From: a virus
Strand: one strand, 5' to 3'
IMG/VR virus record: IMGVR_UViG_3300028384_000422
Location: 19,858 to 83,857 of that record
Length of the DNA stretch: 64,000 nt
Part shown: in pieces, positions 3,871-27,074 of the stretch
Numbering within the stretch: the stretch's first letter is position 1
Layout: each line of letters begins with the position of its first letter
The notes under the pieces: generated by a model
Told to the model about the DNA's origin: nothing
The model's input: the letters and a program-made list of their open reading frames with translations, nothing else
Database searches by the model: none
Translations under genes and position numbers: made by a program

Positions 3871-3882
3871 TTAGTGTCAACC

Positions 3883-5121: not shown

Positions 5122-5141
5122 TACTCACTAAGTTTTTTAGT

Positions 5142-5149
5142 TATTTATA
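5142..5149 (-). promoter_or_regulatory. T4-type late promoter TATAAATA
   Basis: Exact TATAAATA on the minus strand, 21-28 bp upstream of the ATG at 5121. It overlaps the stop codon of the giant gene, which would let the 412-aa gene be transcribed separately by late, gp55-type sigma-directed RNA polymerase. Confidence 0.75.
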
Positions 5150-8100
5150 GGATCTCTGGATCAACTGCTTCTTCTCCGTAATCCGCAAGATTTGGAGCGG
5201 TCCAATCGTCGGGGACAGTTGTTTCAACATCAATGCCTGGGTTCTGATATCCAGATCCAGCATTACTCATCTCAACACCCGAAACACCAACCAGCGCCTT
5301 AATATTACCATCGAATCCAGAGATAGAGTCGATTCTCACTGTAGGTCTGGAAGTATATCCAGAACCACCACCAGTAACCTGAACATCATCAATAAATCCA
5401 GAAGTGATTTGAGCCTGTGCGAGTGCATCTTGACCAAAGACAGATCCCAGATAATCGAAAGTGATCAAAGAGTTAGAAGACTCAATAACAGCAACTTCAC
5501 GATCATCGGTTTCACCCTGAATTCTGATGAAATCACCAGGTTCAACGGGAGGAACAACTTCAGCAGCATCAACGTCTGCTTCAGAACCAACGTAAGAGAA
5601 GGCAACAAATGTAGATCCGAATCTAGGAATTTCGGAGAAGATGATTCTAGAACCAACAATCTCAAAACCAATTCCAGGTTCCTGGATAACACCATTGAGA
5701 GAAACAATGATGTTATTTTCAGGTCTAATAACACTAGATTGTACACCGTCCGTAAGTGTAAGTGAGTAGAATACTTCGTTACGCTTAAGGTTAAAGGACT
5801 GACGTAAAGAGTCAAACTCAAACGAAATATCGTCAAGTTGTCTCAGTTTACCAACATAGAATCCAGTGAACGATGCACCAATATCGGGTGCTTCAGTGAA
5901 CTGAATTTGATTGGAGAATGCTGTATATGCATTGGTAGCGCCAGGAGGTTGCAAAATACCATTGATGAATACCAACAGATGACCAGCAGGATCTGGTAGA
6001 TAAGATGTTCCGTTTTCAATAGTAAGATCGAAGTTTGTCTGTGTGCCATCGAAACCTTTGGAAGAACGCTTAACGCGAGCCTTAAGATCTTCTTTAGAAG
6101 TAATAACTGACTTATAATTATCGGCAGACTTGATACCATCTCTAGTAGTAAATGTTCCTGCGATATCACTTAGATACAGACGTTTCTGTGTGCCAACCGT
6201 CTTAACGTCTTGAATAAGAGCGGCAGCGGCACCTGCGGTTACGACTCTGGTTGTGATAGAAGCATAACCAACGGGGAAGTTACCAGCAAGACCATAATCA
6301 CCAACAACATCACCATTTGTTAATTCACCCTGGAAATCGACCGCGTAAATGTAGTTATTGTCAAGGTCAACTTCGGTAATAATTGCATATACAGAAGAAA
6401 CTTGATTACCACTAACAACCTTATACAGTCTGTTACCAACGGTGAATGTATTCAGATTACTAATAATACTAATACCGAATCTCACATAACCAGTAGATGC
6501 AATTCTCTGACCAATTTGAGCATTGAAACCATCATATTTGATAACATCGATATATTGTCTGGAACTCTCTGGATATACAACAGAGTTCTTCTCGAAAGTT
6601 CCGAGTAATGTCTCTGTGTCAACTTTAAGAGTACCACCAGTATTAGAAAGAACTGCTGCCTGATTCTTAATGAATCCAGTGGGTTGTGCAGTCTCGCCAC
6701 TAGTGTAACCTTTAAACGGAATATCATTAGAGAACTCGCCTTTAAGGTCGATAATATGAATTCTATTTTCAATTGCACTAATCTGAGCAGATGTGGAGTT
6801 TTCAGCACCAACGATAATATCGGTAATTGCCCAAGGACCAGCGGTAACACGAACATCAAGATACTTATAGTTTTCATCTTCATGGAAACCATATACAACA
6901 CCAGTAACAGATGGAGCACCTTGCTTAGCAACAGTCTCATTCATCGTAAACGGTCCATCAGTGATGTCACCGTCGATACGGAAACGCTTGTAGATTTGAA
7001 CAATCTTACCGCTATTTTCGTTTAATGTTTCTACTTCTGCATATGCATTACTAGACTGACCATAGACAAAATCGGTGGTTTTAAGACCTCCTCCAAGACC
7101 AATGACTTTATCTCTTTCTCCAAATGTTTTGGTCGGCAGAGAAATAGCGTTCTGAATATCGAGAGAAGTGAAGTAAGTTCCAGTCTTGATTTGCTGTCTA
7201 ATAATATTGGTCGCATAACGAGCCAAAGCAGTAATAGAATCTGTAGTGTAATCAGATGCTGCAGTAGAACTGTAGAAACTATAGAAACCTGCATTTGTGG
7301 ACGGCGATGTAAGAGTTCCTGCGAGAGCCTGTGCAATGAATCCATCGAGCAGATCCAGAGCAAAGTTCTTGATATTAAACTCGTTATCAGAGTAGAAGAT
7401 CTTACCACTGGTTGCAGTGTAAGGATCCAAAGCAAACTTGGTGAGTTTTGCACCCCAAAGGTAAATACCTGTGCTGCCATTACCAGTCCAGGACTGAGCA
7501 CCAGAAGCACTATTAGCAATAATATTAGTTCTAAGAACAGAGAAACCAAAGGAGAACGTTGCAGTAATAAAGAGTCGATACCACCCATCACCAAGAGGAA
7601 CCGCACCATAAGCATCACCTGTAATACCACCCTGAGGAATAAAGAGTGATCCAATAGCACCAGTACTGAGATTCAGATCAAAGAAGATATTTTGTTCTGC
7701 AGTAGTTCCATCATCCAAGATAAGACCGAATCTGACAGAAGCAGAACCTGCTGCTTTAACAAAGATGGATGATGTGAATGTTTGTGTTTCAGAAACACCT
7801 ACAGCACCTGTATCAAAAGATTCATTTGTGGTGTCGAAAGTCAGTGTGCTTGAGTCAAATGTCTCAAATGCAGTCAGGTTATAATCTCTGAAAGTATCAT
7901 GAATACCACCATTATTATTTGCAGCGAAAAACTTCTCTGCAGTCAATGTTCCATCAGGAGCAGAGATCGAATTATCAGTGATCAGCAGAGAGTCAACACC
8001 ACCATTACTATTAACTTGCCAATTGACAGCAAGTGCTTCAGGGTTAGTAAACAGATTAGTACCAGAAACTTGACCACTGATGTTAGAAACCAATGTCTTA

Positions 8101-11100
8101 GCATGATCTAATGTCTGAACATTAGTAGGTTCAGAATACCAATCATAACCACTACCAACAGTAGCAACTGTTGCGGTCGCACTAGAAGTTCTACCAGTTA
8201 AGGTATCGGATGCAGACCATGCGGTTCCTGTAAATGCGCCAACAATCAACAGATTAGTTTCTTCATTCCACTCAAGAACGGTAGCATAACCGCCGCCACT
8301 AGAACGAATGACTTCACCAAGTTGGAAATTGCCAGTCAGAGAAGTGAATGTAATCTTATATGCAGTTTCCTTAACTGTAGTGTCAGTTGTAACAACATCA
8401 TGAACCATATCAGTGATAATTCTATCAATGAAAGAGTTGTATACCCATGCTCCAGAACCAAACTGAGAGTTGACCTGATTCTGAATCTCCTCCTTATAAT
8501 AATTGAGGTTATAAAGAATATTCTTAGATGCACTGCGACTAATGTCACCTCCAGGTGCAAGAATACCAATAATAATATCAATAAGATCTTCAAATCTATA
8601 TACAACTTTTTCAATATCAATTACAGTTTCGGTATCGCGATATGCAACATCATCACTGTAAATTGCCGCATAATCAGGAGAAGTAAATCCAGAGTTAAAA
8701 TCATATGCTCTGTTTCTGATTGCAAAAGGACCAATATCCTTCAATTTTTGAAGTGAATAAACAAAAGCGAGAATTTCATCTTCGATATCCTTAATTTGAA
8801 GAGATGCAGTCAGATATTTTTCAATTTCTGCAATGGTGCTATTAGTACCACCTGTCTGCAAGTCAGAAATAATACCAAGAAGAATTGCCTCTATATTTGC
8901 CTGTCTTACCAATTCATCAGCATATGTAAATGCGTTATAAGTAACACCATTCAAATCATATTGGAATTCAGTTCTAGTATAACCAGTTACTTCTTCAGCA
9001 AGATACTGTCTGTTGAAATACAAACGATCTGCAGCAACATGGAAATCATTACCTGTAGGAGCGATAACATCGTTGATAATAGTTACCAAATTATCAATTG
9101 CTGTCTTAACGTTTGCACATCCACCAGCATCCTGAGTAATACCCCAATCACCAACAATGATTGCATCGGTATTATCATAAGTCAAATCACCTGTAATCGC
9201 TTGTTTTGCATAGAATGCAAGACGCTCATGTGCATAAACAGATTGGAATACCTGTAAGCGAATATATAGAAGAATATCATTAGTACCAAGATAGAAGTTT
9301 GCTGCCTGAACAGTCTTCTCATTACCACCATTTTGAATATCATCTGCAATTCCATCCAAGATCTGACCCAAGTCAGTCTTACAACGCACAGTACCATCAG
9401 TGCTACCACCACCTTGGTTACGAGGCATATCCTGTGCAAGATCAGGATAACGCTGCAACATATCAAATGCTGCTTTATCAACGATAGCAGATCTGTTTGC
9501 TCTAATCAGGTTAGCAGCATCTCTAAAGCGATATTGTGCATCGGTGTCAATTCTATTACTATAGAATACATCAGTATTTGCATCATGATAAGAAATATCG
9601 AAAGGAGTCTCTCTAAATGCATTGACTGTTCCACCAAGGAACTTGTAAGCGGGAAGTTTCTTAGTAACAGATCCAAGATAATCAACAGCAGGATCTTGAC
9701 TTGCATTGTCTAATGTATCGCTGACAATAGACATCAAGTTGTCAACTGTATTAATAACATCTGTGCAATCATTGAGATTATATTCAGACTTAGTTATTGC
9801 ACCGCTACTTGCGGATACGAAAGTATGTGCATATTGATCATTCTGACCAGATTTACCAACATTCACAGTGAATGTATTGGTATCAGCAGCAGTAATAACA
9901 AGAACTTGTTTTGCAGCAGGATCAGACTTTCTGGGGTATGATTTCTGTGCAGTATTTCCATCTTCAGTGCAAGTGAATACAATCGACTCAGTTGCAATGA
10001 ATACGGAATCACCAGCAACCGTAATACCATTAGTGGTTGCACTTACGAAGCTATGAGTGTAGTTACCACCAGCAACAACACCATTTGTAGTTGCAGACGC
10101 AAAGGTGTGTGCTGTAGTATCCCCAGAAGTTCCAAGATCAACGGTGATTGTATTGTCTTTCTTAACAATTCCATTTGCTGTTGCACTTACAAATGTATGA
10201 ACATATTGATCAGCAGCAGAAGAAGGACCAACGTTGACAGTAAACGTATTAGTAGATACTGCAGTCGGACGTAACCATCTACCAGAGAAAGGATCGGTAG
10301 AACGAGGATAAGTCTTATTCTCAAAGTTACCATCCTTAGTGCAGGTGAATGTTAAAGAATTATCTTCAATTCTAATCTTATCACTAGTGGTGAATCCATG
10401 GTTTGCAACGGTAACTACAAGTTGACCCGATGCAGGATCATATGTTGCTGCTGTTGCAGTACTTGTTGCACCATTCTGAGTAATTTCATATGAAGTTGCT
10501 GCTGCAGTAGGAGCAGATCCGTTAGATCCAGATCCTCTGCTGAAAGTAAGTGCATTCTGAGCAATTTGAACATTCTGACCAACTTCCAGATTATTCTCAG
10601 GAAGAGTAATTACTGCAATACCTGTAGAAGGATTATATGTTGCAGTAGTCGGAGTGTAATTAACTGTAGGAGACTTACCAACATTAACTTCAAATGTATT
10701 CGTAGCAACGTTAGAAACTTCCAACCAACCCTGAGAAGCAGGATCATTTGCACGAGGATAAGTCTTCTGAGCAGTATTGCCGTCCATGGTGCAAGTGAAG
10801 GTCAGAGAGTTATCTGCCAACTTGATTCTGTCACCATTAGAAAGACCGTGACTGTTAGAAGTGATTTGAAGAACACCTGTAGTTGCAGTATATGTTGCAC
10901 CAGTTGCAGTCTTATTGCTAGGAGCAACTAAACCATGACCATTAGAGGTAAGAACCATGAGACCCGTTGCGGGATCATATGTTGCATCAGAGGGCACAAA
11001 TGTGGTTGCACTTGCGTAAGAAGACTCGGTAATAGAAGTATCAAACTTCTGAGTGAGACCATGATCACCCTGTACTTCCCAAGGTGTGTTGTTAATTACA

Positions 11101-14100
11101 TATTCAACAATCTCTTGAGTCTTTTCTAGAGTATAGAGAGTTTCTGCAATTTCACTTTCAACATGACTCAATGTGATTGGGTTGACTGTTCTATTAACAT
11201 ACAGTGCAGAAGCATCCCAGATTTTATCATTACTACCATTTCTCAAGTCATTTACAAGAGCATCGAGAATATCACGAACATCATCCTCACAATTGATTTC
11301 TCCACCAGGAACAGTGAAATAAGGATAGCGATTCTTCATGATATAAACTGCTTCATTCGCAATAAAGTCCTTATTGAGAATAATGTTATCAGCAGCATTG
11401 ATATAACGATGAGAGTTGCCAGTAAATCCAGTAACTCCAATACCTGTGGAGGACCTAGATGTTGCTAAGATTGCATCATTATTAAAGTACTCATCTGCAG
11501 TGAAGGACTCACCACCAGACCAGTCTTCAACATAAGTTTGACCTTCTTCTCCATCAAAGTGAAGAAGAAGTTTTGTAGTTGCATCACCTTGGAACATTCC
11601 TGTAGGAGCAGTGAATGCTGCGGTATAACGGTTAGTTGTAGAAACACGAAGTTCGTCAATGTAACCAGCAAATTCGTTTGCGCCTGCATAGTCACCACCG
11701 ATTCTGAGAGGTTTAGCGGCATAGTTATTAGCATCAATACCAACACCTCTCTCAACACCATCAATATACAGTTTGGTGCCTCCAGAAGCGGTAGAAGAGC
11801 GAACAACTGCAATATGATACCAAACATTGTTATTAAGCGTGGTAAGACCAGAAGTTGCAATATCTACATTATTTGAATTAAAACGAACTTGACCAGCTTC
11901 AAGATACAAACGACCAGCAACATCAGATGCCTGAGTGCGGAAGTCGAGAAGAGTCTTAGTTCCACTCAAAGAAGCAGAAAGGGGCTTCACCCAAAGTTCA
12001 ATTGTATACGCAGCAGTGCCGAATGCAAATTCACTCGAAGATGGAGTGCTAATGTATTCGTCGATAGGAACAGCACCAACGTTGACTGTAATCGTAGTAG
12101 AAGTTACTGCACTGATAGCAAGTGCTGTACCAGATGCAGGATCAGTAGAACGAGGATACGACTTATTGGAAGTATCTCCATCTTGATCGCATGTGAATGT
12201 AACAGCGTTATCTGCGATTGTGACAGTGTTGGAAGTGGTAAGAGAGTGATTACCAATCTCAAGGGTCATTGCACCCGTTGCAGGGTTATATGACGTGCCT
12301 GTAGCAGCAGTGTATGTGCCTGTAGCACCACCGCCAGCAACAATACCATCGGCAACACCACTTACAAATGTATGATCGGAAAGACCAGCAGAGAGTGCTA
12401 AACAGGAAGATCCAAACTTCTCATTGTAAGTATTAATATAAGCACCTGCTTCCCATGTCCACTGGAAGTAATCTTGACCATTACGTTGTGAGCGACCAAT
12501 CTTACCAACATAAACGGTGTTAATAGCAGAGTTATAACCGATAACTTCTGCTTTTGTATCACGGGTTCTAATAATTTGACCAGCAGCAAAGAAACCATCA
12601 CCAATCTTATCAGTGAATGTTAGTTTTCTAACAACGCCGTTCTCTATTTGGAAATCACCAACATTGTTACCGTAATCAATTTTATAGTTACGAACAATTT
12701 CATCAGCATCAAAATCTCCAGATGCATTATCATAAGGAATTACATAATTATTAATCTGTTCATTTGCAGGGAAGTTAGAGTTAAATGCGGTTGCATTATC
12801 ACCATACTGAACAACATTGACTTGAGAAGAGGAAATATCGTCGAGGATTACGTTAGGATAAGTTTGAGATGCAATTCTGTTGAACAGCAGACCGAAGAAA
12901 GAAGAACCTTCAGAAATATTGACCTGACCAATAAACTCTTGAGTTGTAGGATCTTGATATGTGGCAGTAGCAGTAACTCTTGCAACAACACCCGACTGAG
13001 CACCGATAATGACATCATTAAGTTGAATATCAAACAATCCAGGTGTAGACTGATATGTACCAGCAGTCTTACTTAAAGTAAGTGCATTAGTAACAGAAAT
13101 AGCAGTTCCATATACAGGAGCATCTTCTTGCTGAGGTGCTGCAGCGGTTCCATTTTGACCTCTAGTTACTCCAATAGTAGTAGACTCACTACCATCAGTA
13201 ACAGAGTTAACTAAGAAGATTTCGGAACCGACTTGATAGTTATCGCCAACAACGAATGTTCCTGCAGCAACAGGCGAATCTGTAGCAGCAGATACATCAA
13301 TTACTTCAATATTAGTGGTTGCAGCACCGATAGTGTAGCGCAGTTTTGCAACAGGTGTTTCTTGACCTCTTTCCAGGTTAATCTGTTCAACAATAGCAGT
13401 ATCGCCATCGAAGTTGGTAATTTTCTCACCGAAAACAAACAGACCCAGATTTGTAACTGCTGTGTTAGTTGCTAAGTTAGCATTAAATCCAGTAGTGCTA
13501 CCAGTGATCAATTCACCGATAATAAACGTGCCAGACTCCATGAAACCGTTAACTGTGTCACCAACAACACTAGTAACAATCAATCGTGCAGCAGAACTAG
13601 TACCAACTAATGTATTACCAGCTAACGGGAAAATACCACTCTGATTAGTAAATGTCAGAGAAATAGTATTGATTTGATCAATGGTAATATTTACATACTT
13701 AACACTTGCAGGAGGTGAAGGAGGTTCTTGGAAAACAATAGAATCATTTTGAATTTCAAACGATGTTCCAGGGTTCTGAACGATACCGTTAAGAACAATC
13801 ATTAACTGATTAGCGTTTGCAACAACGTTGTCTCCATCAACAGTTAGAGGGAACGCAATGCGCTCACCATCAAACAGATTAGAAATGTCATCCAATCTTT
13901 GAACAACAGAGGTTAAGATGTTCTCAGAAGAGGTCAGTCTCTTTTGACGGAACAGAACTTCTGTATTATTGAATTCGGAATATACAGGTTCAACCAGAGC
14001 AAAGTTCTGAATATTAGGAACAATTGCAGCTTGTGTAAGTTCAACCGACTTAGTTAACTCGAAGAAAGTCTCTTTATTAGGAACGAATCCATACTCATTT

Positions 14101-17100
14101 AAGTTCAGTTCACCAAAGACCTTGAAGGATGCTGGGTGAACGTTCTTGATAAGAATTTCTTTCCACTCACCAATCGAAACAGCAGACTTAACAGCATAGG
14201 AGAAGTCCTGATAATAGTAAGAGTCTTGAATCTTCTGAATAATTTCAGACGGTTTACCAACGTCATCGATAAACTGACCCGTAGTTTCTGTAATAGAACC
14301 AATTTCAAGAACACCTTTAGCAATCTTCAGATCACTAATAATACCAGAAGATTTAGAAATAACACCTGTGATTCTTTGATTTGCAGAGAAGTCGCCAGTA
14401 TAGTCAACGATCTTGAGAATTCTAGGACCAACTTGCCAACCACTATTTGTAGAAACATAACCAGTTGCTGTTGCAACATCCAGAGAATCACCTTGATATA
14501 CAAGTTCACCCTCAAGGAATGTAGAAGTTCCAACATTTGCCGTTGCAGAACCACCGAAAGATTCAGTCAAGATAGACTGACGACCATTACCTGCATTACT
14601 GAATGTAAGTGCGTCACCCAGTTCTGCGTTAGCAGGAGTGATAGCAAGTTTTAACTGATCATCTTCCAAAGAGTTTGCTGTACCAGCAATTGCATAATAA
14701 GTGGTAGATCCGTTTAAACGACCAGTTGCGCCAGATGACAGAGGGAATTCTGCACCATCACCAGTATCAGTTACCGAAACCGTAACTTCAGCACCATTTG
14801 TAATACCATGAGGGAAGGAGAATTGAAGCAGACCTAAGTCAAGGTTGATAACATAGTTGAAAGAAGATTTCAGACTTACAGTAGGTGTAGAAGAATAACC
14901 AGCACCAGGATCTTTGATCAAAATTTGATCCAAACGACCATTCTTAATTGTTGCCTCAGCAACAGCACCAGAACCGCCACCACCAGAGATAATAACAGCA
15001 GGTGCCTGAGAATAACCCGAACCAGGATCATTGACAGTAATACTAGTAAGAATGCTAGTAGATGTTAACTGTGCGTTGATTGGGAAAGTAATTTCAGGAC
15101 GCAACGTATAGTCATGAGGATAATCATAACCAAAGTTATTGTTCTTAAGTTTCTTGATCTTACCGACCTTATCACCCTTAGTGAAAACAGATGCTCCAGA
15201 ACCGAAGGAGGGAATAACAACCTCAACTTCAGCACCAGAACCAGTCAAACCAGCACCAAGAATACCATCAACAGAATCAATATCAATAGTTGCAGTGGTA
15301 TAACCTTTACCAGGAGAGGTAACCGTAACTGCTTGAATCTGTCCAGGGATTGCATCACCTTCAGAGTCAGTGCCATCAGCAACAGTAATTTCTACTAATC
15401 CACCTTCACCATCACCTGCAATAGGAACACCTCGATATTGACCAACTGCATATTCAGTTCCAGGTTCATTAATTTGAACTCTCTCAATTTGTCTTGTAGA
15501 TTGAATATCAGAAACAATAGGTAATCTCTGATAGAATCCACCAGCGTTAACAACTCTAATGTCACTGATAGAACCAACTGCTTTCTTAGAACTAGTGCTA
15601 TAAGACGCTTGACTGATATCTGCAGGACCTTCAGGCTCATTCAGCAGAGGGAATTTAATAATGTCAGCACCACGAGTAATTGTTGCACCAGCAACACCAC
15701 TGAGTTGGAATGTTCCGACATATGGAGAATCTACAACGTCAAGATAACTACCAGGAATGACAGGAGAATCATCACCCGTTCTAGAAGGATCAAAGTAGTA
15801 CGAGATATTGGTTACAATGTTTCTATCAACCTTGAGTTTAACAGTAGGAGTAGGTTGACCTTCACCAGTAAGACCAGGAGTTCCAACACGTTCAATAGAG
15901 TTGAATGAATATTCCAACTTATACAGGTTATCCTTAGAGAAGGATAAGTTGCCACCTTCAAGAGAGGAATGACTAAGGTCAAACAGATATTGATGACCAT
16001 AATACATCTTCAAGGTAGGAGACTTCGAGAAGATACTAACACCCGATGCTGTTGTAGCAGGATCAGAAACTGCTGCAGCAGTTAACTTGTAAACAAATTC
16101 CAGAGGACTGATTACTTGATTGACTGCGAACGCACCATCATATTCATCATATGTAACTCCACCAACATCTTGAGACGGGTTACCATCAACAAAGATAACA
16201 TCACCAGCATCAAGATAATGATTAGTATCGGTAATTACATAAACTTCATCGCCATTCTCACGAGCAGTGACTTGAAGAATCTTAGTAAGATTTGTAATTA
16301 CAGTAACTTTGGTAACACCAGTCAGACCTGTAATTTGAGCGGTGCTATATGCAGAATTGAATGAAATATTTCCAGAAGCAATCTGAACAACAGATCCAAC
16401 AATATACGGGGAAGATCCGCTAACTTCGTCAATTCTAATGGAATAATCATCATCAGAATATGGTTTGAATACTGCATATTCATCAAGATTATTAGTTCCA
16501 CCTATATCAGTAGGAGCGTTAAAGTCTGCCAGATCAAGATCAAAGGTTCCAGGAGTAGTATTAATTACTTGTGCAAAAGAGTAACTATCAATCTGATTAA
16601 TATCATTAGGAATTACACCAGTAATACCATAAGTAGACTGTTCATTAAACTGCTCTGTAGAGAGACGACCCGTGTTCAGATCGTTAGACCAAGTGTTATT
16701 ATTAACCGCAACAAAAACATGATTGGTTGTAGTATCAACCTTAGTAATATATCCGCTGTTAATAAATGCTCCTGATGTATTCCTCAGTACTAACTTAGAA
16801 CCAACGGTAAATCTAAATGACTGATTAATAGTCAGTTTTTGAATATTATCAATCTTAAGAGTATTTGTTACTTTGAAGAAATATCTATCTTTAACAACTG
16901 CAGTTACCTGCAACTTCTGAGAACCAGGAGAAGGAACAGTTGCAGTTCTGGAACTCCATATATCCTGAGTATAAGTCAATGTCTCAGAATCTTGAGTCAT
17001 TGTAGTATCCGCATCATCAAAGTCAAGTGATTGTAGACCAGCATCACCTAAAGCATACTCGGAAGTAGAAATAGTAAGAGTGGATCCTGTAACAGGAGTT

Positions 17101-20100
17101 ACTGCAGTTCTTGTAAATGCAATACCAGTATTTGTCTGAGTTGCCTTATCACCAAGTCTTACAGCATCAGCATCCTTGTCAACTTTAAGTCCAAAACCAG
17201 CGTAATCAATGTAATCGTAACGACCCAGATAATCAGGGAACCAAGTAAGATCGGTGTATGTGTAGGAAAGTCCAATTGCACCATTAGTTGGAAGAACCGA
17301 GATATCACTAGGTGTAGTAGGAGTAACGGCACGATTTCTCAGACGGAAGTTATCAGTAATATACTGACCTTGCTCATTTACACGGAATGTGCCAGTAGTG
17401 CCATCTTTACCAGAGATTTGACCAACTAAGAAATCTTTGTTTGCAAAATTAGTGTCGGAAAGAGTTGCGGTAATTACTGAAATGCCATTGACATATACAG
17501 TGAATGTATTACCATCTCTCTTAAGACCAATAAACTGCCAAGTGTCATCAGCAAACATCGTAGTTTGCGTAGATTGTACAGCACTTCCTAAGTTGATGGT
17601 TGTAGTGTTATTAGTAACAACTAAGGAGAGTTTACCATCAGCAACGTTGTAATACAACCAAAGACCACCTGTAGCATCGGTGGCATCACCAATAGAGAAT
17701 AAGGTATGTTGAGTGATACCAGAAACAGCAGTGAAATTGGTATCTTTAAAGATCTGCATTTCGGCAGTCCAGTTACCATTCAACTTAGTTCCTAATTGAG
17801 CGCCAGTAACTTTTAGGTTGCCTCTTGTCCAAGTGCTTTGACCAGTCTGATAACCATAGATCTTTGCATATCCACCATCGTAATCCAAAGAACCGCTAGT
17901 AGATTCGGTAGTCAGTGTGTAATGTCCAGTGGTATCAGTAGTTGTAGATCCCGTATTAAAGGGGAAAATAAACTCGTTACGGTTCCAAGAGATCTGACCG
18001 AAGACATGAACGTCTGCAGAGTTGTCTACATCTAAAGAGTGTGCGGTAATACCTTCAATATTTGCTTCGTCGAAGTTATTGGTAGTATGATTTTTAACAA
18101 TACCATTATAACCAATCTTAACTGTATCTACAGTCTTCAACCCAGTTGTATTATCAGTACGATTAAATGCAACGTTCAGATCACCGAAAATGTCGATTTC
18201 TGAATTGCCAACCATATCAACTTCTCTACCAGGAGCAACATAACGATAGTTCCAGATAAGAGCACCGTCAGTATTAATCTTACCAACCCAGAAACTATCT
18301 TTGTTGGTATCATCGGACTTAAGACGACAATTACCTAAAACATAAATTTCATTAAATTCGTCAATACACAGACTAGTATTCAAAGTTGAATATAAGGTGT
18401 TTGTATACTTCTTAATCCAAACACTGGTAATTGCAGATGCTCCGATGGACGCTTTACCAACTGCCACATCGACATCGCCAGCAACGTTAGTGTCAGCAAC
18501 TTCTAGTGAATAATAGATGTCTTCTCCATTGACAATGATGTCAGTGATCTTTTCAGATTTATTTGACGATGCAAACTTTCTCTTAACTGAGAAGTTACCG
18601 CTAGTATCAATAGATGCGATGAATGCATCTTCAGGACTTACCGAGTTTGTATTAGTAAAACCACCAATTAAGAAACGAGTATCAGAATACTTAACAAGAG
18701 ATGTAACAACATCACCACGGGTGCTACCAGAAATACCAGCATAACCTTTCTGAAAAGTCAGTGTTGCACTTAAACCATTATCTGCTTGAGTATACTTAGC
18801 AAGAATAATGTCTGGGTTATAATCAGCAAGAATGCTGCTATTTGGTCTATTTTGTCCAACTACCCAAACCGCGTTACCATCAACAACCAGTTTTGAAAAT
18901 TCTGCTTCCTGTTGTCCAGTACCAAGTTCTAATGTTTTCTGCCATTCTTTAACACCTGTAGCAGAGAGTTTAGCAACAAATGCAACTACATTATCACTAG
19001 CATCTTTTGTCTTGCCACAAATGAATACCTCTTTATTGTCATTGACAAAGGTATCGTTGACCTTTACATAGTCATTGTTATTGATAAAGGAGACATAATA
19101 ATCTGCCTTTTTGAATACCTGTGGGTGAGAAAGAATGACTCTAGGATTACTTGTATATCCAGAACCAGAATTAAGGATATTGACAGTATCGATAGATCCA
19201 ACAGAAGATACGACTGCCTGTAGTCTAGCATCAGCACCACTGTCACTATCAATAACAATTGTGGGAGGAATATCTTCATTATAACCAGAACCAGTCTGAT
19301 TAATAATAATCTCTTCGATACCCGTATATTGACGAACAATAAACTGCTTGTTAGTGTTGTCCATAACAGGACTGTAGTCAACAAATACAGTATCACCAAC
19401 AACCAGGTTATGAGGTTCTTCAGTTGTTAAGACACCATAATTTTGTCCACTAATACTTTCAAAGGTATAAGCTTCTACAGTTTCTCCCTTAATTCTAGAA
19501 ACACGAGCGGAAACACCAGATCCACCAGTATTAGTATTATCAAAGATAAGTCTATCATCGACCTGATAGGAAAGTCCTGGGTTTTCAATTGTAAATCCAG
19601 TTACAGAAGCATCCTCAAACTTAGTAGTCGTTTCAACTTCAATATCAACCTTAGAATCCAGTTTTACCTTCGGGAAATAATCATAAAGTTGCAAAGGAGA
19701 TTCTTCAAAGACCTGATCGGGATCATCAAGTTCTGCCTGTTCAATAACACCACTTCTATCTTCGTCTTCTACTTCAAACAGAAGAATATCACCGTTTTCT
19801 AATGTCAATGCATTTGTAGATGCATTAGGAGCACGCTCAACATCGATGTCAACATTCTCATATGGATCGCGATAACGAACAACACCAGTTGGAATATTCT
19901 GTTGAACTGCATCGGTGCTCAAGTTCCACTTATCAACAACGGAGTTGAAGCTAGGACCAAGAACATATGGGAATACAGGATTACCTGCTTCTGCAGCATC
20001 AATAGTGACAAAATAGCAATATCTACCTTCGGGGAAATCAGGTGTTTTGCAGAAACGACCGTTATATTGGTCTAGATCACCTGAGTTAAAAACATATTGA

Positions 20101-23100
20101 TAGTCTTCAACGAAATTACCTGCCGCTTCTTCAGAAAGTAAGGGACCAGCAGTTCTTACGGGATTTGGATTAGTATCAACGTTGTATACCAATTCGGTCT
20201 TCAGACTATAAGAAGTACGCATTCTGGTAATCGAAGATCCTTGATCCGTAGGATCAGTATATGCATAAGGACCGTAAATCGGGTTACCATCAAACGCCCA
20301 ACCAATAATAGGAGAGTGAACAAGTTGATCTTCTTGCTCAAGAATACTACCAGCAGTGTCTTGGAAAAGATTATCACCGAGAATATATCTCAGTCTTTGT
20401 GGGTTGGAGATGTGTGCATATTCTCCACCATACTGATTATTAAATCCTTCAGCAACAAATCCTTTTGCACTATCAATTGTGGAAGTTTCTTGTAAGTTAT
20501 ATGTCCACTTGAATACTTGTGCTGAGAATTGAGCACCTTGACCAATAGAATTCAAGTTGATAATAGTTTGTCCTTGAGTATATCCAATACCCTTGTTAAC
20601 AATAGTGATACCAGTAACTCTACCAGCATTTTCACCATCAGTATCAATAGTCGCTCTTGCTACAGCACCGAAACCATCACCTTGAATTTGAATCTCTGGT
20701 GCAGTAGTGTATCCAGATCCAGCAGAAATAATAGCAATAGAAATAATTCTACCATTATTAACAATTGGTTGAGCAACTGCACCAGAACCAGAACTCAGTG
20801 TAACAGTAGGAGTTGAAGTATAAGAAACACCACCATTAACGATATTGACAGATTTGATAGGACCTCTAACAAATGCAGTACCAGTAGCACCTGTTCCGCC
20901 TCCACCAACAATAGTAATAGAAGGTTGAGATGTATATCCAGTTCCACCCTCATTGATAAGAATTCTAGAAACTACACCCTTAGTGATAATTGCCGTTGCA
21001 GACGCACCAGAACCGCCTCCACCAACGATAGAGACGAGAGGGGAGGATGTATACCCAGAACCACCAGAATCAACTGTAATCTCGCTAATAGCACCATCAA
21101 CAACTACATCTGCAGTAGCACCAGTTCCTCCACCACCATCAATGGTGATAACAGGGGGATTTGCTGCATCATATCCCTCACCTTTGTTGGGGATATCAAT
21201 TGAAGTAACTGCACCAAAAGTTTTTGTGATAGTAGACTTATAGGACCATACTGAGACACCATTCACCCATGTTCCAATAGGACCAGAAGCAATTGTATTC
21301 TTAGTCGAAATAGTTACAGGTGATGTGGGGAATCTGTTCAGTTTACGCTGATTACCAGGTAAAAGAGCAGATCCAGGGAAAGGACCAATATTATAGTTCG
21401 GAATACCCGTAGATGCAACGTAAACGTAGTTGTCATTAAAGAAAGTATTCTGAATGTTAGTGGTATAAGGTCCAATAGCATTAAGAACAATCTGACTATC
21501 AGATTTACCCTTGTTCAAGTCAATAGAAACAAGAATATTACCTTGAGGAACTGTAGTTGCAGGTTGAGGTAATTGATATTGGAAAACCGTAGAACTATCT
21601 CTGGAAGTTACCAAAAACGTTCCGTTATAGATGATTGGGTTTGCACCATAGACCGTAACTTGGTCTCCAACCAAAAGACCGTGAGGATTAGAGCAAGTAA
21701 CAGTTGCAGACTGGTTATTTACACCACCAAAAGTGATACCAGATACTTCAACCAGTTTTTTAACGTTATACAACCAAGTTGTTAACTGAGAAGACGTTCC
21801 TGTGCCACCCAGTTTAGAAACTGACAGTTTATCACCAGGAAGATAATAAGAACCTGTGTCAGTAAGAGTGGTTTGTTGAGCATCAACAATACCAACAATA
21901 TTCATTACAACTTCTTGAGCAGTGCCCTTGTTTAAGAAGATTGTAAAGTTGGAAGAAACCTCTGTAGCAGAATCCCAGTCTTCTACAGTTCCATTTACAG
22001 AACGGGTACACTCAATGAACTGGTTTAGTGACTTTTCTTTGTATTGAATGACTTCTCTGCCAAGTCCACTACCAATTACAAATTCTCCGTTTCTTTCTGG
22101 CCAACCAATCGTAGAGTCAACGGTGATAATACTATCAGTAGTGTTGAGAGGTTCTGCGAGACGAGTTTTATAAGGAACAGTAAAAGTTCCTGTAATAGTT
22201 TCTTCAGAAAGAACAAGTTCAAAGATTTCTACATCAGAAGTTTTAATCGAAATATAGTTTTCAACCAAAGCACTTGCTGCTTGGACATTAGAGTCTGCAA
22301 TATCCGCTTCTTGAGTAATCAGAGCGTCTCTGATGTCTACAGGATTACCACTAACCAAAGTGGCACGAAGAATTGTGTCAACAGACCAAGTTGCAGCAGA
22401 GGGTTTGATGATTTGGTCTTTCGGATACGAAATAGAGACCGTTTCACCATAAAGTAATTTGAAAAGATATGCAATACTAAACGAAGTTCCTTTTGCTGAA
22501 TAAAAATCTTTAATTGACTTGATTGCGTTACGAACGTCAATCTTTTTATAGTCTAATTGAGGAACATCGGGTAAAAACTGCTCAGTATACTTGTCAAGCA
22601 GTCTTTTAATGAATAAAGCATCCAAACACTTGACTTCTGCGTCTACTGCAGCAGATGCCGCTAACGTATTATTAGAAAACTTGGCATTACCATCTTCGGT
22701 ATAAGAGGTTATGCCACTTGCAGATCTGGCACAACCATTAAACGCCGCTTTATCATATTCTGTTCCTGATTTTTGAACTTCAAAACCAGTTACCTCATTA
22801 AGACCGATTTCAACTGATGCCTGAGCAGAAGGAGGGTCCTGAATGACAATCTTTGGGGGTTGTGTGACGCTGTAACCAGTACCAAACTCAGTTACGTTAA
22901 TATCAGTAATCTGACCATTAAAGATCGATGCTACTGCCTTAGCGCCAGTTCCTCCAGAGTAGTTACCTTGAGCATCAGTGCGAGTGTCAACGATATAAAC
23001 CGAAGGGATCTCATCATATCCACTACCACCATTAAGAAGTTCGATACCGATAACACGACCATTACCATCGACTCTAGTTTCAAGAACTTGAGCACCAACT

Positions 23101-24596
23101 GGGTCAATAATTGCAATTCTAGGAGTTGTGGTATAACCTTGACCAGCATTCAAAATTGAAATGCTAGTAACTAGTCCATCAGCAGAAATATTTGCTCTCA
23201 GAGCTGCTCTAATTGGATTTGTGCCTGTAGGTTCATCAACATAAACCTCAGGAGCAGTAGTATATCCAAAACCGTTATTTGTAACAGAAATAGTTCCTGT
23301 AATTGAACCATTAGTGATTGTGGGAGTTCCTAGAGTAGCACCGCCAGGTTGTCTGAACGTAACTCTAGGAGTAAAAGTATATCCAGAACCAGAACTGGTC
23401 AATTCCAACGCAGTTACCGCACCGTTCTCGACAGTTGCGGTCATGGTTGCTGCTACAGAACCAGGTTTTGTCGGAGATTCGATTTGAACAATAGGTGGAT
23501 TGGTAGAACTATACCCCTTACCACCTTGAAGAAGACTTGTAGACTTAATACCATTAACAAGAGACCTAGCAGAACCGCCAGACCCATTAACAGACTTAAT
23601 TGAAACTTGAGGAGGATATTCAAAACGATATTGACTACCACCAGTGTCAACTTTAATAGAAGTTAGTTCACCATTGTCATTAACACGAGAAAAAGCCTTG
23701 GCACCAGCACCAAAAGAGGGGATAGGTGCTTCGATAAAGTACACCGAGAGTTGACGACCATTGATAGGTGCAGTGTCAAAGATAAACTTATCACCATCAA
23801 TGAAGAAATCGATTCTAGGTTGTAAAAGACGACCATCGTAGATAGCAATTACATATTCATCAACAGTCGGTTCATATTTTTCGCTATTTTCAGTTAAGGC
23901 AAAGGTAGTCTTACCTTCACCAAACGAATTAGAAATATCATCAAGAGAAGCAATGGTATTTTCAATAAAACCATTCAAATAAGTGATGAAAGTTGTTGTA
24001 GTATCATCTGCAGGGAGTTTTGTTCTCGGTGCAGTAGTAAATACAATCTCATCACCAGAAAGAGTGAAATCTGTGCCAGGAATCAGAACTTGTCCATAGA
24101 CACTAACAATCAAATGTTGTGCTGAAGGAGGAGCAATTGGGTTATCCTGAGAAACTAGGGGAAATCTTGTCTGTACACCATTAAAATCATTGATTGGTGT
24201 TGCCAGGTTGGTCCATTTAAGTTTTACCTGCTCATAAGAGATACCAGGAGACAGTGCGATGTTAGGAGAACTAGTTGTGTTCTCATAATAGATGACTTCA
24301 TCGCCAATCATGATTGAACCGTTCTCTTCTAAGAACTGTTCAATACTCTCTACAACAATTTTTGTAGATTTATCGGTAATTGCCTCAACAATCTTGGTTT
24401 TGCCTTCCAAGATACCGATGTCCAACTTGTCAATATCAAGATATTGAAGAAAGTTGTTGATAATATTTTGACCAGCACCTGTTTTTTCCTGTGACTGATA
24501 ATAGTACTCCAGGAATCTATTAAACAGAGGATATTCTTCCTCAAGAAAGTCTGGAGTCTGTTGGACAATCGATTGAGATACCTTGTTAATATTCAT
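5145..24596 (-). CDS. Giant modular virion structural protein (6483 aa)
   Basis: One uninterrupted frame of 6484 codons, starting MNINKVSQSIVQQTPDFLEE eight bases after the gp6 stop. It is a mosaic of beta modules. A helical N-terminus (about 1-60) resembles proteins that follow gp6 in cyanophages. Residues about 155-185, 3590-3640 and 6200-6320 carry 'NGxxQxPG...F' modules. GGSGYTSxPxVxIxGGGG repeats cluster at about 310-600, 1100-1310 and 3180-3240. A YHYH-type GWAFDGNPIYGP lies near 1435. A propeller-like region (about 1820-2200) is followed by LamG-like domains (about 2215-2425 and 4175-4360). Repeats with FTCxxDGNxxxKxYPR occupy about 4140-4950. Alpha-rich stretches with paired 'ILDALVNDLRNG' units recur. 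Position directly after gp6 suggests a baseplate-attached fibre or whisker. Exact role unknown. Confidence 0.9.
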   Translation of the reverse strand: MNINKVSQSIVQQTPDFLEEEYPLFNRFLEYYYQSQEKTGAGQNIINNFLQYLDIDKLDIGILEGKTKIVEAITDKSTKIVVESIEQFLEENGSIMIGDEVIYYENTTSSPNIALSPGISYEQVKLKWTNLATPINDFNGVQTRFPLVSQDNPIAPPSAQHLIVSVYGQVLIPGTDFTLSGDEIVFTTAPRTKLPADDTTTTFITYLNGFIENTIASLDDISNSFGEGKTTFALTENSEKYEPTVDEYVIAIYDGRLLQPRIDFFIDGDKFIFDTAPINGRQLSVYFIEAPIPSFGAGAKAFSRVNDNGELTSIKVDTGGSQYRFEYPPQVSIKSVNGSGGSARSLVNGIKSTSLLQGGKGYSSTNPPIVQIESPTKPGSVAATMTATVENGAVTALELTSSGSGYTFTPRVTFRQPGGATLGTPTITNGSITGTISVTNNGFGYTTAPEVYVDEPTGTNPIRAALRANISADGLVTSISILNAGQGYTTTPRIAIIDPVGAQVLETRVDGNGRVIGIELLNGGSGYDEIPSVYIVDTRTDAQGNYSGGTGAKAVASIFNGQITDINVTEFGTGYSVTQPPKIVIQDPPSAQASVEIGLNEVTGFEVQKSGTEYDKAAFNGCARSASGITSYTEDGNAKFSNNTLAASAAVDAEVKCLDALFIKRLLDKYTEQFLPDVPQLDYKKIDVRNAIKSIKDFYSAKGTSFSIAYLFKLLYGETVSISYPKDQIIKPSAATWSVDTILRATLVSGNPVDIRDALITQEADIADSNVQAASALVENYISIKTSDVEIFELVLSEETITGTFTVPYKTRLAEPLNTTDSIITVDSTIGWPERNGEFVIGSGLGREVIQYKEKSLNQFIECTRSVNGTVEDWDSATEVSSNFTIFLNKGTAQEVVMNIVGIVDAQQTTLTDTGSYYLPGDKLSVSKLGGTGTSSQLTTWLYNVKKLVEVSGITFGGVNNQSATVTCSNPHGLLVGDQVTVYGANPIIYNGTFLVTSRDSSTVFQYQLPQPATTVPQGNILVSIDLNKGKSDSQIVLNAIGPYTTNIQNTFFNDNYVYVASTGIPNYNIGPFPGSALLPGNQRKLNRFPTSPVTISTKNTIASGPIGTWVNGVSVWSYKSTITKTFGAVTSIDIPNKGEGYDAANPPVITIDGGGGTGATADVVVDGAISEITVDSGGSGYTSSPLVSIVGGGGSGASATAIITKGVVSRILINEGGTGYTSQPSITIVGGGGTGATGTAFVRGPIKSVNIVNGGVSYTSTPTVTLSSGSGAVAQPIVNNGRIISIAIISAGSGYTTAPEIQIQGDGFGAVARATIDTDGENAGRVTGITIVNKGIGYTQGQTIINLNSIGQGAQFSAQVFKWTYNLQETSTIDSAKGFVAEGFNNQYGGEYAHISNPQRLRYILGDNLFQDTAGSILEQEDQLVHSPIIGWAFDGNPIYGPYAYTDPTDQGSSITRMRTSYSLKTELVYNVDTNPNPVRTAGPLLSEEAAGNFVEDYQYVFNSGDLDQYNGRFCKTPDFPEGRYCYFVTIDAAEAGNPVFPYVLGPSFNSVVDKWNLSTDAVQQNIPTGVVRYRDPYENVDIDVERAPNASTNALTLENGDILLFEVEDEDRSGVIEQAELDDPDQVFEESPLQLYDYFPKVKLDSKVDIEVETTTKFEDASVTGFTIENPGLSYQVDDRLIFDNTNTGGSGVSARVSRIKGETVEAYTFESISGQNYGVLTTEEPHNLVVGDTVFVDYSPVMDNTNKQFIVRQYTGIEEIIINQTGSGYNEDIPPTIVIDSDSGADARLQAVVSSVGSIDTVNILNSGSGYTSNPRVILSHPQVFKKADYYVSFINNNDYVKVNDTFVNDNKEVFICGKTKDASDNVVAFVAKLSATGVKEWQKTLELGTGQQEAEFSKLVVDGNAVWVVGQNRPNSSILADYNPDIILAKYTQADNGLSATLTFQKGYAGISGSTRGDVVTSLVKYSDTRFLIGGFTNTNSVSPEDAFIASIDTSGNFSVKRKFASSNKSEKITDIIVNGEDIYYSLEVADTNVAGDVDVAVGKASIGASAITSVWIKKYTNTLYSTLNTSLCIDEFNEIYVLGNCRLKSDDTNKDSFWVGKINTDGALIWNYRYVAPGREVDMVGNSEIDIFGDLNVAFNRTDNTTGLKTVDTVKIGYNGIVKNHTTNNFDEANIEGITAHSLDVDNSADVHVFGQISWNRNEFIFPFNTGSTTTDTTGHYTLTTESTSGSLDYDGGYAKIYGYQTGQSTWTRGNLKVTGAQLGTKLNGNWTAEMQIFKDTNFTAVSGITQHTLFSIGDATDATGGLWLYYNVADGKLSLVVTNNTTTINLGSAVQSTQTTMFADDTWQFIGLKRDGNTFTVYVNGISVITATLSDTNFANKDFLVGQISGKDGTTGTFRVNEQGQYITDNFRLRNRAVTPTTPSDISVLPTNGAIGLSYTYTDLTWFPDYLGRYDYIDYAGFGLKVDKDADAVRLGDKATQTNTGIAFTRTAVTPVTGSTLTISTSEYALGDAGLQSLDFDDADTTMTQDSETLTYTQDIWSSRTATVPSPGSQKLQVTAVVKDRYFFKVTNTLKIDNIQKLTINQSFRFTVGSKLVLRNTSGAFINSGYITKVDTTTNHVFVAVNNNTWSNDLNTGRLSTEQFNEQSTYGITGVIPNDINQIDSYSFAQVINTTPGTFDLDLADFNAPTDIGGTNNLDEYAVFKPYSDDDYSIRIDEVSGSSPYIVGSVVQIASGNISFNSAYSTAQITGLTGVTKVTVITNLTKILQVTARENGDEVYVITDTNHYLDAGDVIFVDGNPSQDVGGVTYDEYDGAFAVNQVISPLEFVYKLTAAAVSDPATTASGVSIFSKSPTLKMYYGHQYLFDLSHSSLEGGNLSFSKDNLYKLEYSFNSIERVGTPGLTGEGQPTPTVKLKVDRNIVTNISYYFDPSRTGDDSPVIPGSYLDVVDSPYVGTFQLSGVAGATITRGADIIKFPLLNEPEGPADISQASYSTSSKKAVGSISDIRVVNAGGFYQRLPIVSDIQSTRQIERVQINEPGTEYAVGQYRGVPIAGDGEGGLVEITVADGTDSEGDAIPGQIQAVTVTSPGKGYTTATIDIDSVDGILGAGLTGSGAEVEVVIPSFGSGASVFTKGDKVGKIKKLKNNNFGYDYPHDYTLRPEITFPINAQLTSTSILTSITVNDPGSGYSQAPAVIISGGGGSGAVAEATIKNGRLDQILIKDPGAGYSSTPTVSLKSSFNYVINLDLGLLQFSFPHGITNGAEVTVSVTDTGDGAEFPLSSGATGRLNGSTTYYAIAGTANSLEDDQLKLAITPANAELGDALTFSNAGNGRQSILTESFGGSATANVGTSTFLEGELVYQGDSLDVATATGYVSTNSGWQVGPRILKIVDYTGDFSANQRITGVISKSSGIISDLKIAKGVLEIGSITETTGQFIDDVGKPSEIIQKIQDSYYYQDFSYAVKSAVSIGEWKEILIKNVHPASFKVFGELNLNEYGFVPNKETFFELTKSVELTQAAIVPNIQNFALVEPVYSEFNNTEVLFRQKRLTSSENILTSVVQRLDDISNLFDGERIAFPLTVDGDNVVANANQLMIVLNGIVQNPGTSFEIQNDSIVFQEPPSPPASVKYVNITIDQINTISLTFTNQSGIFPLAGNTLVGTSSAARLIVTSVVGDTVNGFMESGTFIIGELITGSTTGFNANLATNTAVTNLGLFVFGEKITNFDGDTAIVEQINLERGQETPVAKLRYTIGAATTNIEVIDVSAATDSPVAAGTFVVGDNYQVGSEIFLVNSVTDGSESTTIGVTRGQNGTAAAPQQEDAPVYGTAISVTNALTLSKTAGTYQSTPGLFDIQLNDVIIGAQSGVVARVTATATYQDPTTQEFIGQVNISEGSSFFGLLFNRIASQTYPNVILDDISSSQVNVVQYGDNATAFNSNFPANEQINNYVIPYDNASGDFDADEIVRNYKIDYGNNVGDFQIENGVVRKLTFTDKIGDGFFAAGQIIRTRDTKAEVIGYNSAINTVYVGKIGRSQRNGQDYFQWTWEAGAYINTYNEKFGSSCLALSAGLSDHTFVSGVADGIVAGGGATGTYTAATGTSYNPATGAMTLEIGNHSLTTSNTVTIADNAVTFTCDQDGDTSNKSYPRSTDPASGTALAISAVTSTTITVNVGAVPIDEYISTPSSSEFAFGTAAYTIELWVKPLSASLSGTKTLLDFRTQASDVAGRLYLEAGQVRFNSNNVDIATSGLTTLNNNVWYHIAVVRSSTASGGTKLYIDGVERGVGIDANNYAAKPLRIGGDYAGANEFAGYIDELRVSTTNRYTAAFTAPTGMFQGDATTKLLLHFDGEEGQTYVEDWSGGESFTADEYFNNDAILATSRSSTGIGVTGFTGNSHRYINAADNIILNKDFIANEAVYIMKNRYPYFTVPGGEINCEDDVRDILDALVNDLRNGSNDKIWDASALYVNRTVNPITLSHVESEIAETLYTLEKTQEIVEYVINNTPWEVQGDHGLTQKFDTSITESSYASATTFVPSDATYDPATGLMVLTSNGHGLVAPSNKTATGATYTATTGVLQITSNSHGLSNGDRIKLADNSLTFTCTMDGNTAQKTYPRANDPASQGWLEVSNVATNTFEVNVGKSPTVNYTPTTATYNPSTGIAVITLPENNLEVGQNVQIAQNALTFSRGSGSNGSAPTAAATSYEITQNGATSTATAATYDPASGQLVVTVANHGFTTSDKIRIEDNSLTFTCTKDGNFENKTYPRSTDPFSGRWLRPTAVSTNTFTVNVGPSSAADQYVHTFVSATANGIVKKDNTITVDLGTSGDTTAHTFASATTNGVVAGGNYTHSFVSATTNGITVAGDSVFIATESIVFTCTEDGNTAQKSYPRKSDPAAKQVLVITAADTNTFTVNVGKSGQNDQYAHTFVSASSGAITKSEYNLNDCTDVINTVDNLMSIVSDTLDNASQDPAVDYLGSVTKKLPAYKFLGGTVNAFRETPFDISYHDANTDVFYSNRIDTDAQYRFRDAANLIRANRSAIVDKAAFDMLQRYPDLAQDMPRNQGGGSTDGTVRCKTDLGQILDGIADDIQNGGNEKTVQAANFYLGTNDILLYIRLQVFQSVYAHERLAFYAKQAITGDLTYDNTDAIIVGDWGITQDAGGCANVKTAIDNLVTIINDVIAPTGNDFHVAADRLYFNRQYLAEEVTGYTRTEFQYDLNGVTYNAFTYADELVRQANIEAILLGIISDLQTGGTNSTIAEIEKYLTASLQIKDIEDEILAFVYSLQKLKDIGPFAIRNRAYDFNSGFTSPDYAAIYSDDVAYRDTETVIDIEKVVYRFEDLIDIIIGILAPGGDISRSASKNILYNLNYYKEEIQNQVNSQFGSGAWVYNSFIDRIITDMVHDVVTTDTTVKETAYKITFTSLTGNFQLGEVIRSSGGGYATVLEWNEETNLLIVGAFTGTAWSASDTLTGRTSSATATVATVGSGYDWYSEPTNVQTLDHAKTLVSNISGQVSGTNLFTNPEALAVNWQVNSNGGVDSLLITDNSISAPDGTLTAEKFFAANNNGGIHDTFRDYNLTAFETFDSSTLTFDTTNESFDTGAVGVSETQTFTSSIFVKAAGSASVRFGLILDDGTTAEQNIFFDLNLSTGAIGSLFIPQGGITGDAYGAVPLGDGWYRLFITATFSFGFSVLRTNIIANSASGAQSWTGNGSTGIYLWGAKLTKFALDPYTATSGKIFYSDNEFNIKNFALDLLDGFIAQALAGTLTSPSTNAGFYSFYSSTAASDYTTDSITALARYATNIIRQQIKTGTYFTSLDIQNAISLPTKTFGERDKVIGLGGGLKTTDFVYGQSSNAYAEVETLNENSGKIVQIYKRFRIDGDITDGPFTMNETVAKQGAPSVTGVVYGFHEDENYKYLDVRVTAGPWAITDIIVGAENSTSAQISAIENRIHIIDLKGEFSNDIPFKGYTSGETAQPTGFIKNQAAVLSNTGGTLKVDTETLLGTFEKNSVVYPESSRQYIDVIKYDGFNAQIGQRIASTGYVRFGISIISNLNTFTVGNRLYKVVSGNQVSSVYAIITEVDLDNNYIYAVDFQGELTNGDVVGDYGLAGNFPVGYASITTRVVTAGAAAALIQDVKTVGTQKRLYLSDIAGTFTTRDGIKSADNYKSVITSKEDLKARVKRSSKGFDGTQTNFDLTIENGTSYLPDPAGHLLVFINGILQPPGATNAYTAFSNQIQFTEAPDIGASFTGFYVGKLRQLDDISFEFDSLRQSFNLKRNEVFYSLTLTDGVQSSVIRPENNIIVSLNGVIQEPGIGFEIVGSRIIFSEIPRFGSTFVAFSYVGSEADVDAAEVVPPVEPGDFIRIQGETDDREVAVIESSNSLITFDYLGSVFGQDALAQAQITSGFIDDVQVTGGGSGYTSRPTVRIDSISGFDGNIKALVGVSGVEMSNAGSGYQNPGIDVETTVPDDWTAPNLADYGEEAVDPEIL

Positions 24597-27048: not shown

Positions 27049-27074
27049 TTAACTTATAAACTGAACAATGCTAT

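Follow-up and report, generated by a model that had tools for sequence, protein, structure and literature searches.

Introduction

In phage T4, the baseplate wedge initiator gp7 (1032 aa) is described as a monomer, present in six copies and placed in the wedge with gp8 and gp6 dimers (PMC3004832). Short gp7 homologues are found in Sinorhizobium phage phiN3 (1006 aa), Pelagibacter phage HTVC008M (1016 aa) and Methylophilales phage Melnitz (896 aa). These four non-cyanophage proteins span 896 to 1032 aa, in a sample where host and phylogeny are inseparable.

In the marine cyanomyoviruses, the T4 tail genes listed as absent include wac, g10, g11, g12, g34, g35 and g37 (PMC2984593), and very large virion proteins have been reported. 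Purified S-SM1 virions yielded multiple peptides of 41 proteins, T4-GC969 among them (PMC3037559), and RefSeq notes assign both SSM1_102 and Syn19_088 to this cluster. Table 1 of PMC9146016 gives S-SZBM1_208, named "Baseplate wedge initiator", as a protein of 724.20 kDa and 6619 aa, with 71 peptides from CsCl-purified virions and 13.5% coverage; the same report describes S-SZBM1 as having no long tail fibres by electron microscopy. For the cluster C phage S-CREM2, ORF122 (5,814 bases, directly after the wedge ORF121) is reported as a wedge protein with 91 unique peptides (PMC10665884); going by its gene position and label, it is probably a shorter form of the same giant.

Genes of this kind are already known and in databases, and the gp7 label is not new for them (P-SSM4 is an example). 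Phages of this kind infect the most abundant marine cyanobacteria, and their host-contact parts are poorly assigned. In one open-access library, we found no title on cryo-EM of a marine T4-like cyanomyovirus baseplate, and no dissection of the core of a giant gp7. The dissection of this scattered core is what the present analysis adds.

Results

The giant gene and its neighbours

The window, that is, the whole stretch of 64,000 nucleotides analysed here, comes from a virus record of 83,857 bases (IMGVR_UViG_3300028384_000422). Syn19 and Syn2, both Synechococcus phages, are very close to this record; a 24.4-kb query was 92.2% identical in DNA to Syn19 across 99% of its length. Five genes of a baseplate block were placed in it, in the order gp25, gp6, giant, gp9/gp10-like gene and a gene cut by the window edge:

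1..3870, minus strand, baseplate wedge subunit cut by the window edge (258 aa align with Syn19_090 at 97.7% identity; its start was derived from the 1290 codons)
3883..5121, minus strand, gp9/gp10-like baseplate wedge protein, directly downstream of the giant (97.6% identity to Syn19 gp9)
5145..24596, minus strand, giant gene, very probably a gp7-type baseplate wedge gene (frame, Syn19 orthologue, dN/dS)
24605..26629, minus strand, gp6 baseplate wedge subunit, directly upstream of the giant (Syn19 orthologue annotated gp6, same place)
26629..27048, minus strand, gp25 baseplate wedge subunit (Syn19 comparison)

The N-terminal 39 aa encoded by 3883-5121 also match T4 gp10, at 56%.

The initial annotation had described one uninterrupted frame filling about 30% of the window directly after gp6, leaving the strand unstated. 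The frame check agrees: the ORF, on the minus strand, holds 6483 codons and a single terminal stop, makes up 30.4% of the window, and starts 8 bases past gp6. Its product begins with MNINKVSQ and has 6483 aa, a mass of 694.7 kDa and a pI of 4.45. One late-promoter-like motif was found at 5149, at the extreme 3′ end of the gene, and the motif listing contains none deeper inside. Elsewhere in the window, a 359-aa open frame (33391-34470, plus strand) lies antisense to a helicase-like gene (33352-34593); it is probably mechanical in origin.

The giant is one intact gene under purifying selection

The closest relative is Syn19_088 (YP_004323921.1, "virion structural protein", T4-GC969), which has the same neighbours, the same 19,452 bases and no structural difference from the window giant, with 97.0% protein identity end to end over 6483 residues and 94.5% DNA identity. 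The two copies differ by about 858 synonymous and 209 non-synonymous changes (dS 0.214, dN 0.014). Selection on the gene, suggested earlier from its cost, was recovered as purifying selection over the whole length, since dN/dS stayed between 0.04 and 0.11 in every one of 13 blocks, each of 500 codons. Because an isolate genome carries the same frame at the same length, and because this selection is uniform, the giant is not a chance ORF; an assembly join or collapse, the error that the initial annotation had named as a risk, was ruled out on the same two grounds.

Among 19 other cyanophage records examined, 16 contain the giant as one intact ORF. Their lengths, in aa, are:

Syn19 6483; S-SM1 6180; S-SSM5 6171; P-RSM4 6603
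P-SSM3 7312; P-SSM4 7312; Syn9 6076; S-ShM2 6198
S-SSM4 6932; ACG-2014d 6817; S-RIM8 6395; S-MbCM6 7022
P-HM2 4454; P-SSM2 5195; P-TIM40 7351; S-SZBM1 6619

The window giant had been placed at the upper end of the size range, which does not hold, as eight of these homologues are longer, one is equal and seven are shorter.

In S-SSM7, the giant is found as two genes of 3007 and 3001 aa (1562-20656 of the stretch examined), the gp7 core half and the arm half being separated by a 340-aa ORF for a virion protein. Fusion of core and arm is therefore not essential, and this natural split could show what the fusion is for. In metaG-MbCM1, the giant is annotated as three ORFs, the breaks being two single in-frame stops (7800-15780 of the stretch examined) in an otherwise open frame; sequence errors are possible there, the name suggesting a metagenome-derived record. 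The Syn2 record ends inside the giant gene. Both S-SSM7 and metaG-MbCM1 would fit a reading in which the giant frame joins several ORFs by assembly, or is processed into several proteins in the virion, and published mass spectrometry cannot tell. Against it stand the identical length in Syn19, the 16 intact homologues, the even dN/dS and the nature of the metaG-MbCM1 breaks, and we consider this reading very improbable.

That the giant is a virion protein, as first proposed, agrees with the recovery of its orthologues from purified S-SM1 and S-SZBM1 virions, whereas its existence as a single product is unproven by the bottom-up mass spectrometry that these reports contain. In particular, the 13.5% coverage of S-SZBM1_208 does not prove one intact chain. 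The only S-SZBM1 gene of matching length has 19,860 bases (6619 aa); it lies, like the window giant, after gp6, carries both gp7 motifs described below, and is 43-45% identical to it through most of the first 4,000 residues. It differs by 136 additional aa, and by a tandem beta module that the HMM did not find.

In the phage collection, 476 records matched a core stretch of 250 aa, and 385 matched the N-terminal 500 aa. The C-terminal 333 aa matched 309 records, every one of them named Synechococcus, Prochlorococcus, Cyanophage or Marine. The profile phrog_701 (6136 positions) was matched from 1 to 6135 across three pieces of the giant. By this match and its end-to-end identity to Syn19_088, the protein belongs to the cyanophage giant virion protein family PHROG 701 / T4-GC969.

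Gene order and sequence evidence for a gp7 core

In 17 of the 19 cyanophage records, the giant directly follows gp25 and gp6, or two genes labelled "baseplate wedge subunit"; the two exceptions are P-SSM2, which is unlabelled, and S-SSM7, with only gp6 in the stretch examined. T4 gp7 likewise comes after gp6.

A profile of residues 590-960, made from 15 sequences, matched T4 gp7 at 730-760 (E 8.4e-7, probability 91.6%, 48% identity over 31 columns), while the same profile gave E values of 0.55, 0.12 and 0.47 with the T4 gp6, gp8 and gp10 controls. With the short gp7 of phiN3, HTVC008M and Melnitz, the match reached 5.2e-20 over 142 columns. A second motif, KIQDSYYYQDFSY...HPASFKVFGEL, was found at residues 3436-3515. 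An HMM built on 20 such stretches, the window's included, matched T4 gp7 at 865-891 (domain i-E 2.3e-5), and none of the other T4 proteins came above the inclusion line (7 T4 proteins in a set of 24 sequences). The order of the motifs, FYS.KG first and YY...HP.G second, is the same in T4 gp7 and in the giant. Each short gp7 holds both motifs as well, the second following the first at residue 949 of 1006 (phiN3), 773 of 1016 (HTVC008M) and 634 of 896 (Melnitz). These three proteins thus share with the giant the core profile, the motifs and the place after gp6, and are far too short to contain its arms; in a Pfam search with E values up to 1, they showed neither YHYH nor LamG.

Of 15 core sequences, 14 matched the Pfam family Baseplate_wedge (PF23786) with E values no higher than 1, the best being 1.2e-5. 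The three short relatives score above its cut-off, and the giant itself, at 26.8 against a cut-off of 27, falls 0.2 bits under it. Presumably there is also a similarity to P2 gpI-type tail proteins. No counterpart of the N-terminal ~640 residues of T4 gp7 was matched in the giant.

Residues 1-960 were modelled with AlphaFold2 (56 sequences, mean pLDDT 80.2). In the model, residues 734-917 superpose on T4 gp7 762-857 (5iv5_BJ) with a Z of 9.0 over 93 residues at 3.8 A, and on a KP1-like phage baseplate chain (9f4a_A0) with a Z of 9.1. We read both chains as gp7 from their length and residue range rather than from the listing. Foldseek probabilities for the core match were low, 0.25 and 0.10, and phmmer with residues 1-800 gave 0 matches among PDB sequences. 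As the 808-884 part scores equally well or better with other phage proteins (highest Z 10.9), and also matches EF-Tu-like barrels (Z about 5.5), the modelled fold taken alone would not be unique to T4 gp7 and is not decisive.

The gp7 assignment is well supported, as it is favoured alike by the gene order, by two distinct sequence motifs and by the match of one domain. We conclude that the giant is very probably the gp7-type wedge subunit of a T4-like cyanophage very close to Syn19, made of a scattered core, two large insertions and a C-terminal extension, with beta repeats and adhesion-type domains, lectin-like ones included, making up the added parts.

A fusion of gp7 with gp8, or with other wedge genes, into one multi-subunit wedge protein was also considered. 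No gp8 gene comes directly after the giant in the window's clade, unlike in P-HM2, P-SSM2 and S-SSM7, the S-MbCM6 giant is labelled gp8, and weak gp8 matches occur at residues 3027-3166. These internal matches, however, cover only positions about 169-292 of the gp8 profile, many of them falling on GxGY repeats, and Syn19, S-SM1, Syn9 and S-SZBM1 each have a full-length gp8 gene farther along (E of at most 8e-154), as does the record that the window comes from (17964-19493 of the record, outside the window; E 6.3e-157). The chance of such a fusion is close to nil, gp8 fused into the giant being ruled out by the separate gp8 genes. The window's record holds gp25, gp6, gp7 and gp8, the last sitting past the gp10-like gene. 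In T4 and P-HM2, gp8 lies directly after gp7; the window's clade has a different wedge gene order, with gp8 displaced.

Another possibility is that the giant is a separate long baseplate fibre or adhesin, in which the gp7-like stretches merely form a docking piece. Repeats and lectin-like modules make up most of its length, the Syn9 orthologue is annotated "putative fiber", and the C-terminal half is a gene of its own in S-SSM7. Yet the core motifs, their order and the gene position match T4 gp7, and T4 gp7 is described as a monomer (PMC3004832), as opposed to trimeric fibres. Moreover, the core stretch occurs at 477 places in the 476 records, which leaves almost no record with a second gp7 core to take the wedge place. 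We regard a separate fibre as unlikely. Of the "long baseplate fibre" put forward in the initial annotation, the baseplate gene block stands and the separate fibre does not, as the giant contains the T4 gp7 wedge core; its arms may nevertheless act like fibres.

Layout of the core

The putative gp7 core is scattered over residues 1-3515 of the giant, in pieces at 1-110, 590 to about 920, and 3436-3515. The segments concerned are:

24267..24596, minus strand, residues 1-110, helical N-terminal piece of the gp7 core; in P-SSM2, S-SSM7 and P-HM2 the second core piece adjoins it
22830..24266, minus strand, residues 111-589, apparent first insertion, with beta modules at 136-190 and 223-277 followed by GxGY beta repeats
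21717..22829, minus strand, residues 590-960, gp7 core with FYSAKGT at 698 and the domain 734-917 superposing on T4 gp7 762-857
14052..14291, minus strand, residues 3436-3515, C-terminal motif of the gp7 core (short gp7 comparison, HMM)

In the window's clade, residues 111-589 appear to have been inserted, because the core starts almost directly after the N-terminal part in P-SSM2, S-SSM7 and P-HM2 (the match begins at residue 117-138 in P-SSM2 and P-HM2). FYS.KG and HP.G are separated by about 150 residues in T4 gp7, by 465 in the Melnitz protein, by 598 in that of HTVC008M and by 877 in that of phiN3. The spacing is 2262-2429 residues for three other cyanophages, and about 2,790 for the window giant. 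The extra domains are N-terminal in T4 gp7, and internal and C-terminal in the cyanophage giant. In 13 giants of the main clade, the core motifs lie at 697-710 and 3486-3619, and are followed by a tail of 2584-3772 residues. Nearly all the length variation sits in this C-terminal arm of about 3,000 residues.

Modules and the variable arm

The propeller, LamG, YHYH, Gly-rich and Ala/Asp-rich modules proposed from the first reading were all located in the giant, the Ala/Asp-rich one at residues 5001-5250 (11% Ala, 11% Asp). The segments outside the core are:

20508..21245, minus strand, residues 1118-1363, second GxGY beta-repeat block
19995..20537, minus strand, residues 1354-1534, YHYH domain PF14240 (Pfam E 8.6e-31; poorly modelled)
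17979..19103, minus strand, residues 1832-2206, predicted beta-propeller (model; VIA Z 37.7 to CylK)
17310..17942, minus strand, residues 2219-2429, LamG/concanavalin-type sandwich (Pfam Laminin_G_2 and model)
9537..12389, minus strand, residues 4070-5020, variable region with a second LamG (4180-4321), tandem beta modules and a helical module (4396-4492)
5148..7919, minus strand, residues 5560-6483, conserved C-terminal part with two copies of the N-terminal-type beta module

Pfam places LamG at about 2317-2394 and about 4180-4320. A short beta module occurs in five copies (136-190, 223-277, 3573-3626, 6201-6255 and 6277-6343), GxGY repeats form blocks at about 300-590, 1118-1363, 1750-1825, 3090-3250 and 6388-6455, and a further helical module lies at 5022-5125.

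A second model, of residues 1340-2450, had a mean pLDDT of 65.7, its YHYH part being too poor to use. It nevertheless contains a clear propeller: model residues 493-867 match CylK with a Z of 37.7 over 348 residues, while integrin-alpha and WD40 propellers gave a Z of about 27. Foldseek also ranks trans-sialidases and GH43 enzymes, a likeness of fold to which we attach no enzymatic claim. Trans-sialidases and GH43 enzymes are propeller enzymes, some of them with a lectin-like domain.

The YHYH domain is presented as a predicted metal hydrolase with three conserved histidines and one aspartate (PMC7824862). In the giant, only two histidines, 1395 and 1427, are invariant in an alignment of 41 rows, and the Pfam match starts at profile position 47. 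The gp10-like gene at 1-3870 of the window has a YHYH-type stretch too, 50% identical over 58 aa to giant residues 1493-1550, and an extra ORF with such a stretch lies between the giant and gp9 in S-ShM2, S-SSM4, ACG-2014d and P-TIM40. By these resemblances, YHYH recurs in the baseplate gene block.

The tandem beta module of the variable region (about 80 residues) is found in four copies in the window giant (4103-4184, 4569-4650, 4719-4801 and 4844-4925). Counts, partial copies included, ranged from 0 to 11 among single-ORF giants, with 1 each in Syn9 and S-RIM8, 11 in P-SSM4, and 12 in the S-SSM7 C-terminal protein; the HMM found none in S-ShM2 and S-SZBM1. Over 13 giants, the near-duplicates Syn19 and P-SSM3 being left out, giant length and module number gave a Spearman coefficient of 0.63 (p 0.02, a value not to be trusted, the sequences being related by descent). 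Adding P-HM2 and P-SSM2 (15 giants) brought it to 0.18 (p 0.52, subject to the same limit). Only inside the main clade do longer giants tend to carry more modules.

Discussion

If the giant is gp7, each baseplate would, by analogy with T4, contain six copies, one per wedge, with the core in contact with gp6 and gp8. At 695 kDa per chain, the six copies would then bring about 4.2 MDa into the baseplate, compared to about 0.7 MDa for T4 gp7. The types of modules, together with the report of no long fibres in S-SZBM1 (PMC9146016), suggest that the arms could reach outward and contact the host surface, and they might relay host binding to the baseplate switch. A fixed role, in structure or in sensing, may fall to the conserved loop arm (about 920-3436), and reach or binding strength may be set by the C-terminal arm, where the tandem modules vary in number.

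Tentatively, the wedge could be the adsorption organ in marine cyanomyoviruses: six gp7 chains of ~0.7 MDa each, bearing lectin-like arms, would replace the T4 pins and part of the fibres, the module count would tune reach or host preference, and binding would be covalently coupled to the baseplate switch. As a whole, we hold this proposal to be possible and more doubtful than probable. If the arms do bind hosts, the wedge would be a receptor-binding part, and more than a scaffold. This raises the questions of where the arms go, and whether the variable tandem array tracks host range.

An enlarged gp7 tells structural biologists where the core of the giant should sit. It also explains the conflicting labels given to these genes, namely virion structural protein, gp7, gp8, fiber, YadA domain protein and hypothetical. 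Other conflicts were noted along the way. The HTVC008M gp7 homologue (5436-8486 of the stretch examined) and two PHROGs, 460 and 3465, bear the name "head closure Hc2", yet match gp7-type wedge proteins, as do PHROG 701, 19630 and 18802, labelled "head and packaging". In S-ShM2, a 573-aa ORF (21440-23161 of the stretch examined) is labelled gp7 "wedge initiator", and blastp of this ORF against T4 gp7 gave no match. In S-MbCM6, the giant that bears the gp8 label is at 2280-23348 of the stretch examined, and a later gene (24617-27501) is labelled gp7.
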